Assembly: GCF_001434145.1 (NCBI RefSeq)
Contig: NZ_AZED01000011.1
Span: 372,667-436,666, forward strand
Direction of reading: 5' to 3'
Length of the DNA: 64,000 nt
Source: Lentilactobacillus otakiensis DSM 19908 = JCM 15040
Lineage (GTDB): Bacteria; Bacillota; Bacilli; Lactobacillales; Lactobacillaceae
The position numbers were made by a program, and so were the translations under genes. This document shows, piece after piece, positions 2,544 through 56,800 of this stretch (positions are counted from its first letter, which is position 1; each line of letters opens with the position of its first letter). Under the pieces are notes generated by a model. That model did no database searches. It was not told the DNA's origin and saw only the letters and a program-made list of their open reading frames with translations.

Positions 2544-3611
2544 CTAAGAATAATCCAACTCAAAATCCCGACTATCAAAATAATCAAATCGCGAGTTAAA
2601 CAAATAATTGCTGGCAATCCCCAACGCAATTGGAATCACGAAGAACAGCAAGGTTACCAACCCAATATTCAATAAGTTAGCAGCGCCATAGCCGTTAACT
2701 GCAGCAATTGGACCAATCAGCCCGGCAAAACCAAACCCAGCGGACATTGGTGTGCCGGCCACTCCGAACAAAGCACCCAGTCCGCCCATAATGCCGGCAT
2801 TTAACGTAACTGGAACGATGAGCTTTGGTCTGGATAAAATATTTGCCATCTGCATTTTCGGTGACCCCAAAAAGTGGGCCAACGAGGTGCCAACTGAGTT
2901 CACTCGCCAGCCATAAATGGCTAAAGCAAAACTGGCGGCGACGATTCCTAAATTGGCTGATCCGGCAGCCACACCATTAATCCCAATCGCAGCTGCAATC
3001 CCAACTGATGAGATCGGTGACACAATTAGAACGGCAAATACCATTCCGATCAAGACGCCCATCACAATCGGCTGCAGCTGTGTGAGCTGTTCAATTCCCA
3101 TCCCGATCAGCTGAGTCAATTGACCAACTGGTTTCAAGGTGAGGACTCCAATACCACCAGCGATGATTAACACCAGTAATGGAATCAACAAGATGGTATA
3201 AGCTTTCAAAGTTTGGCCAAGCAAAGCAATGATCAGGTACCCGATCATAATGGTGATGGCGATATTAATCACGTCACCACTGCCAGCGACAGTGTATGTC
3301 GCACCCCTCAGCTGAAAGTTACCAGCACCGGCAATCGCAGCCAATGCCAGTGATGACGTTTGAATCGGTGAAAATCCCGCCATCATGCCAACACAGACGG
3401 CACTGATTGGCGCCATCAAGACAGCCGCCATGCCAGTCAAAGTCAGAAAGAAAGCAGCCTGTGGAAACACCGGAAGCAAAGCCTTTAATAATTGATTAAG
3501 CAAGGCGCCAGGGACAAGTGCGACAATGATCCCAATCGACAGCCCGTTTAGTGTATTCATGATGAGGTCACGGCCACTCAGCCGTGTTGATGATTCCGCT
3601 GTTAGATTCAT
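2544..3611 (-). CDS. Orphan PTS_EIIC_2-type membrane protein
   Basis: 355 residues, very hydrophobic, about ten membrane segments rich in Gly/Ala, resembling the PTS_EIIC_2 group of membrane proteins. No EIIA or EIIB domain or gene is nearby, so phosphotransfer is doubtful. The start has an AGGAGA, one base after the stop of the D-hydroxyacid dehydrogenase, so the two are very likely cotranscribed with the aminotransferase. The whole operon lies behind an aromatic-amino-acid leader peptide, which points to an aromatic amino, keto or hydroxy acid as substrate; that is inference. A second family member is at 28599-29687. Confidence 0.75.
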   Translation of the reverse strand: MNLTAESSTRLSGRDLIMNTLNGLSIGIIVALVPGALLNQLLKALLPVFPQAAFFLTLTGMAAVLMAPISAVCVGMMAGFSPIQTSSLALAAIAGAGNFQLRGATYTVAGSGDVINIAITIMIGYLIIALLGQTLKAYTILLIPLLVLIIAGGIGVLTLKPVGQLTQLIGMGIEQLTQLQPIVMGVLIGMVFAVLIVSPISSVGIAAAIGINGVAAGSANLGIVAASFALAIYGWRVNSVGTSLAHFLGSPKMQMANILSRPKLIVPVTLNAGIMGGLGALFGVAGTPMSAGFGFAGLIGPIAAVNGYGAANLLNIGLVTLLFFVIPIALGIASNYLFNSRFDYFDSRDFELDYS

Positions 3612-3612
3612 A

Positions 3613-4605
3613 TTATTCTCCTACTTCGTGGGGACTCTTTTGACCATTTAAAATGGTGACAACATCGTTCAAGGCAATTTCAACCATGTTCCGAACGGCA
3701 ACTTCAGTGTAGAAACCAATGTGGGGTGTCACGTTGACATTTGGCATTGCCAATAACTTCTTCAAGTTATCGTTATCAATTTGTTTGCCAGTCAAATCCT
3801 GGCCAACGATGGTGTTTTCACCTTCAAAAGTATCGATGGCCGCCGCAGAAATTTCCTGATTTTCAAGAGCAGCAACTAATGCGCCCGTGTCGACAACCTG
3901 GCCTCGTGAACAGTTGATGAAAATTGCAGATGGCTTCATCTTTTTGAAGACGTCGGCGTTAATCATCTGGTTGGTTTCATCCGTCAACGGGGTATGCATC
4001 GTCACGATATCAGCCGTTTTGAAAACTGTATCATGATCAACATAAGTCAAAGTATCGTTCAACTCTGGTCGATGAATCGGATCGGCCGCAATGACTGTGG
4101 CACCCAGCGCTCTGAAAATCCGGGCAACGGCGCTACCGATTTTACCAGCACCGATAATTCCAACAGTCAATGTATGAATTTCTCGGGCTTCAACACCCTT
4201 CCAACTGAAATCGCCATGCTTTTCGCGTTCGCCAACTTCACCAATATGTCTGAGCAAGCCCATGACGTCGGCTAATACCAATTCACTCACTGAACGTGGT
4301 GAATAAGCTGGTACATTGGTGACAATCAAGTCATTTTTCTTAGCTTGATCCAAGTCAACAATTTCAAAACCAGTGATCCGCAAGGTGAGTTGCTTGATCC
4401 CAAATGAATGGAGCTTTTCGTAAATTACTGGGTCTGAAATTGGTCCGTGTTGCTGGATCACGATGCCATCATATCCTTTGGCAAGGTCCACAGTGTCAGC
4501 GCTCAGTGGTACCGAGTTGGTATCCACTTGAACACCATTTTTCTTAACCCAGCCATCCAGTGGCTTTTGTTCATCTGGTCGGACATTGTACATTAAAATT
4601 TTCAA
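3613..4605 (-). CDS. D-2-hydroxyacid dehydrogenase (D-lactate/D-phenyllactate dehydrogenase-like)
   Basis: 330 residues of the D-isomer-specific 2-hydroxyacid dehydrogenase family, converting 2-oxoacids and D-2-hydroxyacids with NAD(H). It shows the RITGFE segment with the substrate-binding Arg region, the NAD fold GIIGAGKIG, the NCSRGQVVDT segment with the catalytic Arg region, and the catalytic His in TPHIGFYTE. Its place between an aromatic-type aminotransferase and a transporter, under aromatic attenuation, fits phenylpyruvate/phenyllactate or hydroxyphenyl analogues better than lactate. The direction in vivo is unknown. It lies 18 bases after the aminotransferase. Confidence 0.85.
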   Translation of the reverse strand: MKILMYNVRPDEQKPLDGWVKKNGVQVDTNSVPLSADTVDLAKGYDGIVIQQHGPISDPVIYEKLHSFGIKQLTLRITGFEIVDLDQAKKNDLIVTNVPAYSPRSVSELVLADVMGLLRHIGEVGEREKHGDFSWKGVEAREIHTLTVGIIGAGKIGSAVARIFRALGATVIAADPIHRPELNDTLTYVDHDTVFKTADIVTMHTPLTDETNQMINADVFKKMKPSAIFINCSRGQVVDTGALVAALENQEISAAAIDTFEGENTIVGQDLTGKQIDNDNLKKLLAMPNVNVTPHIGFYTEVAVRNMVEIALNDVVTILNGQKSPHEVGE

Positions 4606-4623: not shown

Positions 4624-5802
4624 TTATTTGACTGATTGTTTATCGACGTATTTTTGAATGCGACTAACTGCTTCTTGGATATTTTCTTCGCTGGCAGCGT
4701 AACTGATCCGGACATATCCTTCACCGCCTGGCAGGAAGTATGAGCCTGGAATTAAGGCTACTTTAGCTTCTTTGGCCAGGTCGTAGCAGAATTCCTCACT
4801 ATTTTGGTTCAAACCAGCTGGAATTTTGGCGAAGACGTAGAACGCGCCATTGGGGTTCGGACAGCTGAAACCGGCCTTTTCCAACCCAGCTACCAGGATG
4901 TCGCGACGTTTCATATATTCGGCCTTCATTGGTAACGCATCGTCCATACCATTCTTGAAGGCCTCTTCAGCGGCGGCCTGGGCGTTGGTGGTGAGTGATG
5001 TAATTGTAAATTCACTCACCTTGGCGATTTCATTAATAATATCTTCAGGGCCGCAGATCATACCGACTCTCCAGCCAGTCATGGCGTGTGATTTGGAAAC
5101 CCCGTTCATAACTAAGGTTTGTTCTGGCAGAATCGACCCCATCGAAACGTGGGTGCCGTCATAGGTTAACTCACTGTATATTTCATCACTCAAACAAATA
5201 ATGTCGTGTTTTGAAATCACGTCAGCCAACTTCTGTAGGTCATCCTTATGGTATGTAACACCGGTTGGGTTGTTAGGAAAGTTCAGAATGACTGCTTTGA
5301 CAGTGTCCTTGTTGGCATCAATCGCAGCGGATAATTTTTCTGGTGAGAGAACAAAGCCATTATCAGAGGTGTCTACGAAAATCGGCTTGGCACCGGCCAG
5401 CATCAAAATCGGCACGTACAACGGGAAGATTGGCGTTGGCACGATAACTGTATCACCAGGGTTGATCATGGCCGTCAGTGCAGCGTAAATCGCACCAGTG
5501 GCCCCTGCAGTCATGATGACCTGTTTGTCAGGATCGTAATTCAAGCCGTACTTGGCATTCAGGAAATGGGCGGCTGCTTGGCGCAAACCTTCAGTTCCTC
5601 TCGAGTTGGTGTAGTGACTTTCATTGTCATCAATGGCTTTGATGGCTGCCTGCTTAACGTGCTCTGGCGTGTTAAAGTCCGGTTCACCCAAAGTTAGTTT
5701 GACGATATCTGGAATCGCCGAAATCTTCTGGTTGAAAGTCAAAATTGCTGCTGGGGTTAAAGCTGCCACCCGTTTGTTCATTCTGTCTGATAATTTACTC
5801 AT
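4624..5802 (-). CDS. Class I aromatic-type aminotransferase
   Basis: 392 residues of PLP fold type I. The pyridine-ring region NFPNNPTG, the DEIYSEL segment and the Schiff-base lysine in NGVSKSHAMTGWR (about residue 235) are present, along with the C-terminal Arg in YVRISYA. This group includes the AraT/PatA aminotransferases of lactobacilli, which use aromatic amino acids, and N-acetyl-diaminopimelate aminotransferases. First gene of a three-gene operon. The leader upstream codes six aromatic residues in seven codons, which supports an aromatic substrate. A strong AGGAGGAG precedes the ATG, immediately after the attenuator terminator. Confidence 0.85.
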   Translation of the reverse strand: MSKLSDRMNKRVAALTPAAILTFNQKISAIPDIVKLTLGEPDFNTPEHVKQAAIKAIDDNESHYTNSRGTEGLRQAAAHFLNAKYGLNYDPDKQVIMTAGATGAIYAALTAMINPGDTVIVPTPIFPLYVPILMLAGAKPIFVDTSDNGFVLSPEKLSAAIDANKDTVKAVILNFPNNPTGVTYHKDDLQKLADVISKHDIICLSDEIYSELTYDGTHVSMGSILPEQTLVMNGVSKSHAMTGWRVGMICGPEDIINEIAKVSEFTITSLTTNAQAAAEEAFKNGMDDALPMKAEYMKRRDILVAGLEKAGFSCPNPNGAFYVFAKIPAGLNQNSEEFCYDLAKEAKVALIPGSYFLPGGEGYVRISYAASEENIQEAVSRIQKYVDKQSVK

Positions 5803-5816
5803 TGTGTTCTCCTCCT

Positions 5817-5862
5817 AAAAAATATGGGTCCCCAAAGTCAACGGACTGACTGTGAGGACCCA
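5817..5862 (-). terminator. Attenuator terminator of the aminotransferase operon
   Basis: On the minus strand TGGGTCC pairs with GGACCCA around an inner AGTCA/TGACT stem, followed by TATTTTTT. It ends just before the ribosome-binding site of the aminotransferase, so transcription of the operon must pass it. Confidence 0.9.
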
Positions 5863-5951
5863 CCATAGGTATAATCCCGCACAGTCAACTCAGTGATCTG
5901 TGCGGCCTTTAAATTGCATTACGAAATGCTTTTGGCTTATCCACAGATCAC
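5863..5951 (-). promoter_or_regulatory. Aromatic-responsive attenuator with alternative hairpins
   Basis: Four segments can pair in turn. Segment 1 (5942-5951, over the leader stop codon) matches segment 2 (5893-5902) over 10 bp. Segment 2 (5898-5905) matches segment 3 (5877-5884) over 8 bp. Segment 3 (5880-5887) matches 5847-5854 inside the terminator over 8 bp. A ribosome finishing the leader covers segment 1, so 2:3 forms and the terminator is free to fold. A ribosome stalled earlier leaves 1:2 to form, then 3:4 breaks the terminator. The pairings are exact; the mechanism is inferred from trp-type attenuation. Confidence 0.85.
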
Positions 5952-6013
5952 ACTCGGAAAAACCAAAAGTAATATCGACAACTATTCATTTGGATGTTTG
6001 AATTATTTTTCAT
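5948..6013 (-). CDS. Aromatic leader peptide (21 aa)
   Basis: A 21-codon ORF with TAAGGAG spaced for its ATG. Its C-terminal half reads RYYFWFFR: six aromatic residues in seven positions, covering Tyr, Phe and Trp. The stop codon lies inside segment 1 of the attenuator. It is followed by an aminotransferase operon. The peptide itself probably has no function beyond ribosome stalling when aromatic aminoacyl-tRNA is short. Confidence 0.88.
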   Translation of the reverse strand: MKNNSNIQMNSCRYYFWFFRV

Positions 6014-6031
6014 AATTAAAAACTCCTTAGA

Positions 6032-6073
6032 ATATGTTAAACATATGATAACGTTTTTAATCTTGTGAATCAA
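6032..6073 (-). promoter_or_regulatory. Promoter and palindromic site for the aminotransferase leader
   Basis: TTGATT (6068-6073), 17 bp, TATCAT (6045-6050) on the minus strand. A perfect palindrome ATATGTTAAACATAT (6032-6046) covers the likely transcription start and could be an operator; its binding protein is unknown. Confidence 0.6.
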
Positions 6074-6081
6074 GGGGAATT

Positions 6082-6798
6082 TTATGCGTGCTTGGTGCCA
6101 AGGTGAAATGCGGCTGCCCCAAAGGTGAATTGGCGATAGCTAACATCAGTGAGGCCGGCGTTTTGAAACATCTCAACTAATTTTGCGGCCGACACAAATT
6201 CTGCCGTGGTTCGCTGTAAATATGAATATTCCTGATATTTATTGACTGTCAGCTTTGCCATAATTGGCACCAAATTGAAATAGGCCCGCCAACCCAATTT
6301 GATAATTGGGTTAGTCGGCTTTGAAGTTTCTAAGCAGGCAACCCGCCCCTGATCGTGGATGACTCTGGTCATTTCGTGTAACACTTGATCCGCATCCGGA
6401 ACGTTGCGGAGCCCAAAACCAATCGTTGCCAGGTCAAACTGATTGTCATCGTAAGGCAAATGCATTGCATCCCCCTTCACCAACGTCACCCGATCACGTA
6501 ACCCGGCAGCAGCCACTTTCTTCTCGGCGATCTTCAGCATTTCTTCACTGAAATCCAAGCCAATCACCTGACCGGATGGGCCAACGGCTCTTGCCAGAGC
6601 AATCGTCCAGTCACCGGTCCCGCAACAAACATCAATCGCAAAGCTGCCGGGTTGAACATTAAGCTGTTTCATGACCAATTTTCGCCAATGCTTGTGGTTC
6701 CCCAAACTAATCAACGAGTTCATGCCGTCATAGTTATCAGCGATTTGATCAAATAGCGATTCAACTTTTGTTTCCGGGGTTTTATTTGTCAGGCTCAT
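6082..6798 (-). CDS. menG: Demethylmenaquinone methyltransferase
   Basis: 238 residues of the MenG/UbiE family, which methylates demethylmenaquinone with S-adenosylmethionine. The SAM motif DVCCGTGDW (about residues 56-64), the GLDFSEEML segment and IGFGLRNVPD are all characteristic. Divergent from menA with a 63-bp gap, so the two form a small module that can finish menaquinone from imported dihydroxynaphthoate, as known in other lactic acid bacteria. No other men genes are in the window. Confidence 0.93.
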   Translation of the reverse strand: MSLTNKTPETKVESLFDQIADNYDGMNSLISLGNHKHWRKLVMKQLNVQPGSFAIDVCCGTGDWTIALARAVGPSGQVIGLDFSEEMLKIAEKKVAAAGLRDRVTLVKGDAMHLPYDDNQFDLATIGFGLRNVPDADQVLHEMTRVIHDQGRVACLETSKPTNPIIKLGWRAYFNLVPIMAKLTVNKYQEYSYLQRTTAEFVSAAKLVEMFQNAGLTDVSYRQFTFGAAAFHLGTKHA

Positions 6799-22622: not shown

Positions 22623-22650
22623 TCGTCAATAAGAATAAGTGATATGTAAC

Positions 22651-22745
22651 AAAAAACCTCTTCACCGAGTTCGGTAAAGAGGTTTTAGTTAGCCCTGAGT
22701 AGTCCTCAAGATTCGCCATACCTTCTTAACCTCACGGGGTTAATG
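22651..22745 (-). promoter_or_regulatory. pyrB: pyr leader attenuator 1 (PyrR-type)
   Basis: The sequence ACCCCGTGAGGTTAAGAAGG (22724-22743 reversed) resembles the PyrR-binding loop. It is followed by a terminator (22651-22686) with arms AAAACCTCTTTACCGA and TCGGTGAAGAGGTTTT and six T. AGGGCTAACTAAAACCTC before it can take part in an antiterminator. Confidence 0.8.
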
Positions 22746-22985
22746 TTAAAGGTTCTGTTTGATTACTTAGAATCATATTCTATTTTGAGACAAAAAACAA
22801 GTCTATTTGTGAAATTAATTTTGAAAATGATTATTTATCCAAGAATTCGAATATATTTAAAAGTGACGACTAACTTATCTATAAGGGCGGTATTTTAAGC
22901 CATTTGTCGTTATTTAATAAATATACATATTGTATTTTATTTGTACATATTTATCCGAATATCGTCAAATATTGCATATTTTCGC

Positions 22986-40522: not shown

Positions 40523-40562
40523 AAAAAGCCTCCTTTCGTCTGATAACAAAAGGAGGCTTTTC
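40523..40562 (-). terminator. TPP-riboswitch terminator carrying the thiW ribosome-binding site
   Basis: AAAAGCCTCCTTTTG pairs with CGAAAGGAGGCTTTTT. The 3' arm is itself the AAAGGAGG ribosome-binding site of thiW, and the T run ends at the ATG. Confidence 0.85.
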
Positions 40563-40566
40563 GCTT

Positions 40567-40654
40567 CGCTTAACACTTTCCTACGCTGGCGCTAACCAGA
40601 TCAGGTTCTAAGGGTCCGTCAAAGTTCCGTCTCAGCCAAATGGCTCCCCTAATG
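40567..40654 (-). promoter_or_regulatory. TPP riboswitch (THI element)
   Basis: On the minus strand GGGGAGCC-TTTGGCTGAGA, GGACCCTTAGAACCTGATCTGGTTAG and CCAGCGTAGGAAAG (the middle given here in parts: GGACCC, then CTGATCTGGTTA) match the conserved TPP aptamer blocks in order. High TPP should favour the following terminator and switch thiW off. Confidence 0.95.
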
Positions 40655-40726
40655 TTATCTCGTATTTAATTCAAGCACTTCATTAAGTATAACCGAAAAC
40701 AATTTGCTTGTCGGGAATTTGGCATG

Positions 40727-49375: not shown

Positions 49376-49640
49376 AAGCGCCCAATCAGAAGTTAAACTT
49401 CTAAAAGGACGCTTTAGCGCGGTACCACCTTCATTGTGGAATAAATTCCACCTCTCGCGTACAACCGGTCGACTCGGTATACGTTGGCGCTGTATTGGGC
49501 GCACCCTAGTGACTCTTTGCGAATCACCGTGCTCAAAATTGACTTTAAGTAATTAAGAAATTACGCCTTCACAGATCACGACGCTCTCTTTGAATTTCTT
49601 AATACCGACTTTTCAATTTCTCTAAGCACTTTCTCATCGA
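49376..49640 (-). promoter_or_regulatory. T-box riboswitch before the OppA gene
   Basis: The T-box core AAGGTGGTACCGCG is at 49418-49433, followed by a terminator AAAGCGTCC...GGGCGCTTTTT (49376-49418). A long stem I is seen: GTGCT..AAATTGA pairs with TCAATTT..GCAC and TTAAGAAATT with AATTTCTTAA. The loop between these stems holds TTACTTAAAG; CUU (Leu) is one possible specifier, but I cannot fix it. Confidence 0.9.
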
Positions 49641-56577: not shown

Positions 56578-56800
56578 AAAACGTCCCTGACAACTAGCAT
56601 AGCCAGCTGTCAGGGACGAATTACCGTGGTTCCACCCTTTTTCGTATTCTGTTAAAGACAAAATACCTCGTTTGGAATACATATTTAATTAAACATCACA
56701 ACTCCGAGCGCACTTTCAGCTTATGTCTGCCCGCTCTTTCACTATCAGCGGTCGCTTTATGCAAGACAACAACTTACTCTTCTCTTCAACATCGTGAAAT
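56578..56800 (-). promoter_or_regulatory. T-box riboswitch before the amino-acid ABC operon
   Basis: Core AAGGGTGGAACCACGG (56624-56639) and a strong terminator CGTCCCTGACA...TGTCAGGGACG plus T run (56578-56620). Stem I has an AGTA motif and GAAAGTGCGCTC on its 3' side; UGC (Cys, 56710-56712) is at a plausible specifier position, tentative. Transcription starts from TTGACT-17-TATCTT (56829-56857). Confidence 0.9.

Follow-up and report, generated by a model that had tools for sequence, protein, structure and literature searches.

We analyzed a window of 64,000 nucleotides from the genome of Lentilactobacillus otakiensis, in which a short leader open reading frame (ORF) and a switch region lie on the minus strand between menG and an aminotransferase (AT) gene. 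We propose, with a probability of roughly 0.4, that this element represents a widespread and so far unnamed class of attenuators in Lactobacillaceae. In this class, the regulatory codons would also form one side of a switching helix, which in turn crosses the helix setting the antiterminator, and one codon could drift freely, with Trp replaced by Arg, Gly, Leu, Tyr, Lys, or Ala, provided that its RNA partner changes with it. The class would define a Phe/Tyr-starvation regulon for the salvage of aromatic amino acids, made up of AT, a D-hydroxyacid dehydrogenase (DH), and an EIIC-like protein that would carry aromatic amino, keto, or hydroxy acids.

The leader ORF (5948-6013; this and all other parts of the element are on the minus strand) was read in the sequence and compared with relatives, and has 21 codons encoding MKNNSNIQMNSCRYYFWFFRV. 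It follows a ribosome-binding site, AAGGAG (6023-6028), and a candidate promoter, TTGATT-17-TATCAT (6045-6073), found by a pattern scan with 9/12 matches and giving a presumed transcription start. A screen of the window for ORFs of 10-32 codons beginning behind a Shine-Dalgarno-like motif gave 120 start codons, and the leader was the sole ORF among them with at least five aromatic residues in six codons. The aromatic leader with a ribosome-binding site before AT, as described in the original prediction, is conserved in 20 of 24 Lentilactobacillus genomes. For a wider comparison, 71 distinct relative leaders were collected with a motif requiring F-x-[FY]-[FP] and a Shine-Dalgarno-like sequence. 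The ORF and ribosome-binding site are conserved in these relatives, with translation predicted and the Shine-Dalgarno-like sequence demanded by the collecting motif, and 48/71 have a TAYNAT hexamer 22-65 nt ahead of the ATG of the leader, compared with 7/71 for a control interval lying 107-150 nt ahead of it.

The leader runs into a chain of complementary segments. Segment Z (5960-5969), formed by Phe-Trp-Phe codons, pairs with Z' (5929-5938) over 10 bp including one G-U. Segment A (5942-5951), which overlaps the stop codon, forms 10 exact base pairs with 5902-5893 of segment B (5893-5905) in the ON state, while 5905-5898 of B pairs with 5884-5877 of segment C (5877-5889), and 5889-5880 of C pairs with segment D. 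Segment D (5845-5863) is also the 5' side of the terminator, the 3' arm of which is segment E (5824-5834), followed by a U-tract read in the sequence (5817-5822), where a short RNA would be expected to end. Helices Z:Z' and A:B cross, in the order Z, A, Z', B, and have no bases in common, with spacers of 8, 3, and 26 nt. An alignment of 41 sequences bears out both the predicted chain ending in an intrinsic terminator and the covariation anticipated for its stems. The OFF helices are paired in 97.3% of cells, compared with 33-54% when partners are slid by 1-3 columns, and 136 cells are changed on both sides compared with 39.7 in shuffled alignments; the ON helices are paired in 89.3% of cells, compared with 28-42% when slid. 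Pairing reaches 98.5% for Z:Z' and 92.2% for A:B, and the terminator helix D:E has both-side changes at 9/14 pairs. Because segment D is common to C:D and D:E, both conserved in the 41 sequences, antiterminator and terminator are mutually exclusive.

In a model of this switch, a shortage of Phe or Tyr probably turns the AT-DH-EIIC operon on. A ribosome stalled on the Tyr-Tyr-Phe-Trp-Phe run would hide all or most of Z and leave all or most of A free, so that A:B could form and the C:D antiterminator would exclude terminator D:E. Once the ribosome stood at the stop codon, A would instead be hidden, leading to the OFF fold and termination. The original prediction considered only segments A-D, the pairing of which is real, but these four alone give the opposite sign: under a stalled ribosome covering A, B:C would form and free D for the terminator, and starvation would mean OFF. 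However, the aromatic run ends 5' of A and overlaps Z.

We computed the direction of the switch with a ribosome modelled as covering 12 nt past the first base of the A-site codon, its assumed footprint. For the window, the energy of the antiterminated ensemble is -16.2 to -19.5 kcal/mol when the ribosome occupies one of the codons of the run from the first Tyr through the second Phe, -12.9 kcal/mol when it is on the last Phe, and -9.0 kcal/mol at the stop. For a broader energy test, 34 leaders were hand-chosen for diversity from 35 collected, with L131 excluded because it lacks a terminator, and terminators were chosen by eye. The mean gain of the first three aromatic codons over the stop is 4.6 kcal/mol, compared with 0.5 in shuffles of the intervening RNA, and exceeds 1 kcal/mol in 27/34 leaders. 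At least 76 of 80 shuffles are beaten by 20/34 leaders but not by the other 14, which include the leader of the window, with a gain reached by 6/80 shuffles. Averaged over the 41 aligned sequences, the probability that C:D is formed before E is made is 0.92-0.97 for a ribosome on the codons between the first Tyr and the second Phe, both included, 0.70 for the last Phe, and 0.38-0.43 for the three codons thereafter. It falls by more than 0.5 in 23/41, sharply in several (L009, L010, L054, L058, L059, L066, and L067), and without such a fall in 18/41, including the window and its nearest relatives (L002-L007), in which C:D remains likely until E competes. In computation with the assumed footprint, the position of the ribosome on the codons or at the stop decides which helix forms.

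Which amino acids are sensed was judged from codon conservation, by which the common signal is Phe with Tyr, and Trp is not constant. Phe is present in 71/71 leaders, as demanded by the motif, with Tyr or Phe beside it; position -1 of the run is Tyr in 65, position +1 is Trp in 59, and position +2 is Phe or Tyr in all, with a few leaders aligned one position off in these counts. The run lacks Tyr in three leaders: AFSFAF before DH-EIIC (L085), EFWFF (L092), and NFWFWFF (L026). Thus, of the Tyr/Phe/Trp sensing proposed originally, the Phe and, mostly, the Tyr codons are kept, but Trp is not. In a set of 78 leaders (L131 and L167 dropped for lack of an anchor, L085 and L166 anchored by hand), 67 have TGG as codon +1, and the other 11 have CGG (3), GGG (2), TTG, GGT, TAT, AAG, CGT, and GCG, which encode Arg, Gly, Leu, Tyr, Lys, or Ala (L060, L068-L071, L085, L093, L137, L140, L147, and L154). 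With the Z' of these leaders chosen by eye, all three bases of the replaced codon pair, by Watson-Crick or G-U, with their own Z' in 11/11, compared with 0/11 for the usual CCA; four of the 11 have one mismatch elsewhere in Z:Z' (L068, L069, L070, and L085). Therefore, the RNA helix outlasts the Trp codon. At least seven of the replacements look independent by lineage, as judged by eye from the lineages without a tree. Third positions in the run are tightly fixed (TAT 40/41, TAC 61/65, and TTT 64/71), which fits a double burden of codon and helix.

The genes behind the leader match the predicted families. The end of the U-tract (5817) immediately precedes the ribosome-binding site of the class I/II AT (4624-5802, minus strand), for which the nearest NCBIfam model is PRK07309 (547 bits, under its cut-off of 576). 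AT is followed on the same strand by DH (3613-4605, from family searches) and the EIIC-like membrane protein (2544-3611), a likely transporter that matches Pfam PTS_EIIC_2 (PF13303, 1.5e-87) and no NCBIfam model at E 0.001. On the other side of the element lies menG, encoding demethylmenaquinone methyltransferase (6082-6798). The genome has two further ATs, 53% and 48% identical, and the switch covariance model matches it once only. This model, built from 21 sequences and searched against 397 Lactobacillaceae genomes at E <= 0.01, matches 66 genomes belonging to 12 of the 40 genera. In 65 of 68 places, the next gene downstream is AT, EIIC, or DH (58, 6, and 1, respectively); the other three are a prephenate-dehydratase-like gene (L092), a contig end (L050), and a match before serC judged by eye to be false (L096). 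At L092 (G002), a leader ending in NPEFWFFSEW stands ahead of a 191-aa prephenate-dehydratase-like gene, with a family match under the curated cut-off, which is a possible second target of the same attenuator class. In genome G021 the element occurs a second time, ahead of EIIC (L026/L097), and the leader of this copy ends in NFWFWFF. A further copy precedes an AT-like gene outside Lactobacillaceae, in another family of the order (L100, G572).

Within Lentilactobacillus, the 20 genomes with the element are the same 20 with an AT match at E <= 1e-100, and the other four have none. The AT of L. parabuchneri is 94% identical to that of the window. In G010, the AT match is only 54% and interrupted by stops, and the AT that follows the leader can be aligned only partly. 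In four Lentilactobacillus genomes (L013-L016), an insert of ~140-510 nt separates the terminator from AT, with two similar stretches seen by eye in L013. Among 80 named loci, the best of 587 fetched by AT similarity, 22 were accepted as having a short aromatic leader preceded by a ribosome-binding site. Besides Lentilactobacillus, these are from Pediococcus, Secundilactobacillus, Agrilactobacillus, Lactiplantibacillus, Liquorilactobacillus, Loigolactobacillus, Leuconostoc, Limosilactobacillus, Weissella, Sporolactobacillus, Bifidobacterium, and two Lactobacillus bins; two Bacillaceae loci (L191 and L201) passed the leader filter and were not accepted. In eight leaders of another lineage (L082-L084, L086, L089-L091, and L094) the RNA sequence is very different and the same helix order is readable by eye. 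Leaders from Liquorilactobacillus, some Lactiplantibacillus, Sporolactobacillus, and Weissella (L088, L095, L134, L137, L138, L140, and L154) have by eye an extra hairpin of the GGTGCAAACA/TGTTTGCACC type between the stop codon and Z'. The extra hairpin apparently adds two segments and thereby keeps the sign of the switch; the seven leaders scored from this group fail the energy test. A different aromatic leader, MQGTRFTYWWHGFDL, is found in Bifidobacterium (L131 and L133, upstream of 3001) ahead of a 64% identical AT; in L131 no terminator was found, and there is an A:B-like pairing and a predicted pairing near the AT ribosome-binding site. In Weissella fangxianensis (L160, 1304-1548), a T-box precedes a gene resembling FAD-linked oxidases, followed by an AT gene.

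Could the conserved region act in another way? Conceivably, the short ORF is untranslated and the region is a terminator with a long conserved RNA, such as a ligand-binding aptamer. The third positions of the run are nearly as fixed as its amino acids (the TAT and TTT counts above), and no Rfam family matches at the element, as would suit such an RNA. However, the ORF length and stop position shift between relatives while the ribosome-binding site, frame, and Phe/Tyr run stay, and the stems differ in RNA sequence from lineage to lineage, unlike an aptamer core, which makes this explanation very improbable. It is also unlikely that the crossing helices are present together in one compact pseudoknot. 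The absence of shared bases and the spacers between Z:Z' and A:B permit both 10-bp stems, and the replaced codons in Z keep pairing with Z', but a pseudoknot is hard to reconcile with three of the extra-hairpin leaders (L137, L140, and L154) because their Z' lies 65-71 nt after Z.

A nascent-peptide arrest sensor would retain the translated leader and reverse its meaning: free Phe, Tyr, or a product of the phenylpyruvate/phenyllactate type would act jointly with the leader peptide inside the exit tunnel, in the manner of Trp and TnaC, and excess would switch the operon for degradation to phenyllactate. In favor of this reading, lactic acid bacteria are known to break down aromatic amino acids through AT and hydroxyacid dehydrogenase, some residues preceding the run are conserved as amino acids through synonymous changes (Q-L-N, with Leu as TTG, CTG, or TTA), and the stop codon inside A would suit a stall at stop. 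A stall there would nevertheless mask A and give the OFF fold. Moreover, the leaders diverge between lineages while the Phe/Tyr content stays (QFYFWYFG, NFYFKYFG, and NFYYYFGFFR), neither Trp nor the residues after the run are kept, and the L092 copy precedes a biosynthetic, prephenate-dehydratase-like gene (the match below the curated cut-off). We therefore doubt that an arrest sensor operates here and favor attenuation by Phe/Tyr shortage.

The synthesis of Phe and Tyr ends with an aminotransferase reaction, and D-hydroxyacid dehydrogenases convert keto acids into hydroxy acids and back. The host genome encodes chorismate synthase and prephenate dehydratase, and therefore can probably make aromatic amino acids. 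Starvation-induced AT, DH, and carrier would suit salvage or completion of aromatic amino acids, with presumed aromatic substrates and carrier role. If correct, the model predicts when these bacteria, which serve in food and attract study for their phenyllactic and indolelactic acid, make their enzymes for aromatic keto and hydroxy acids, and suggests a likely function for the EIIC-like family, which comes first downstream in 6/68 places. The natural compensated codon swaps also offer a test bench for a ribosome and an RNA helix using the same bases.

Other regulatory RNAs in the window are a TPP riboswitch (40561-40660) and a PyrR binding site (22649-22756), both on the minus strand and at Rfam gathering score, and two T-box matches: one at 49402-49633 on the minus strand (79.7 bits, below gathering score), ahead of a gene resembling peptide-binding lipoproteins, and one at ~56609-56798 from the genome scan at E <= 0.001. 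TPP and PyrR are the only matches in the window at gathering score, and the Rfam trp, his, and phe leader families do not match. The genome is rich in T-boxes, with 40 matches at E <= 0.001, 11 of them above gathering score, and none at the element locus (G000 C4 378483-378739). T-box riboswitches, like the proposed element, read tRNA charging, but here a translated ORF would do the sensing.

In textbooks, leader-peptide attenuation is the mode of Proteobacteria. A report on a His leader in bacilli states that its authors knew of no demonstrated case beyond Proteobacteria and Actinobacteria, ermC excepted (PMC2965389). Other reports describe His attenuators in the Bacillus cereus group, Eubacteriales, and Erysipelotrichales (PMC9413887) and, in a title, a leucine-rich attenuator peptide of Staphylococcus aureus (PMC5794164). 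These Firmicutes attenuators, of hisS/hisZ, his operons, and branched-chain genes, resemble our element in using leader peptides where T-boxes are common. The cases we found, from sources seen in part, concern His and branched-chain amino acids, with no aromatic and no Lactobacillaceae case among them; the element, if correctly read, would add an aromatic leader-peptide attenuator in Firmicutes beside them. It shares aromatic codons, and a stall that favors the antiterminator, with the trp and pheA attenuators of enterobacteria. As in the enterobacterial his operon attenuator, a leader ORF with regulatory codons is followed by a chain of helices that exclude one another and fall into two alternating sets, with the intrinsic terminator as the last helix. 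Unlike the his attenuator, with which any sequence relation was compared via Rfam only, the element has mixed Phe/Tyr(/Trp) codons and controls other genes in lactobacilli, and its codon segment pairs with a site within the A:B loop, so that the two helices cross.
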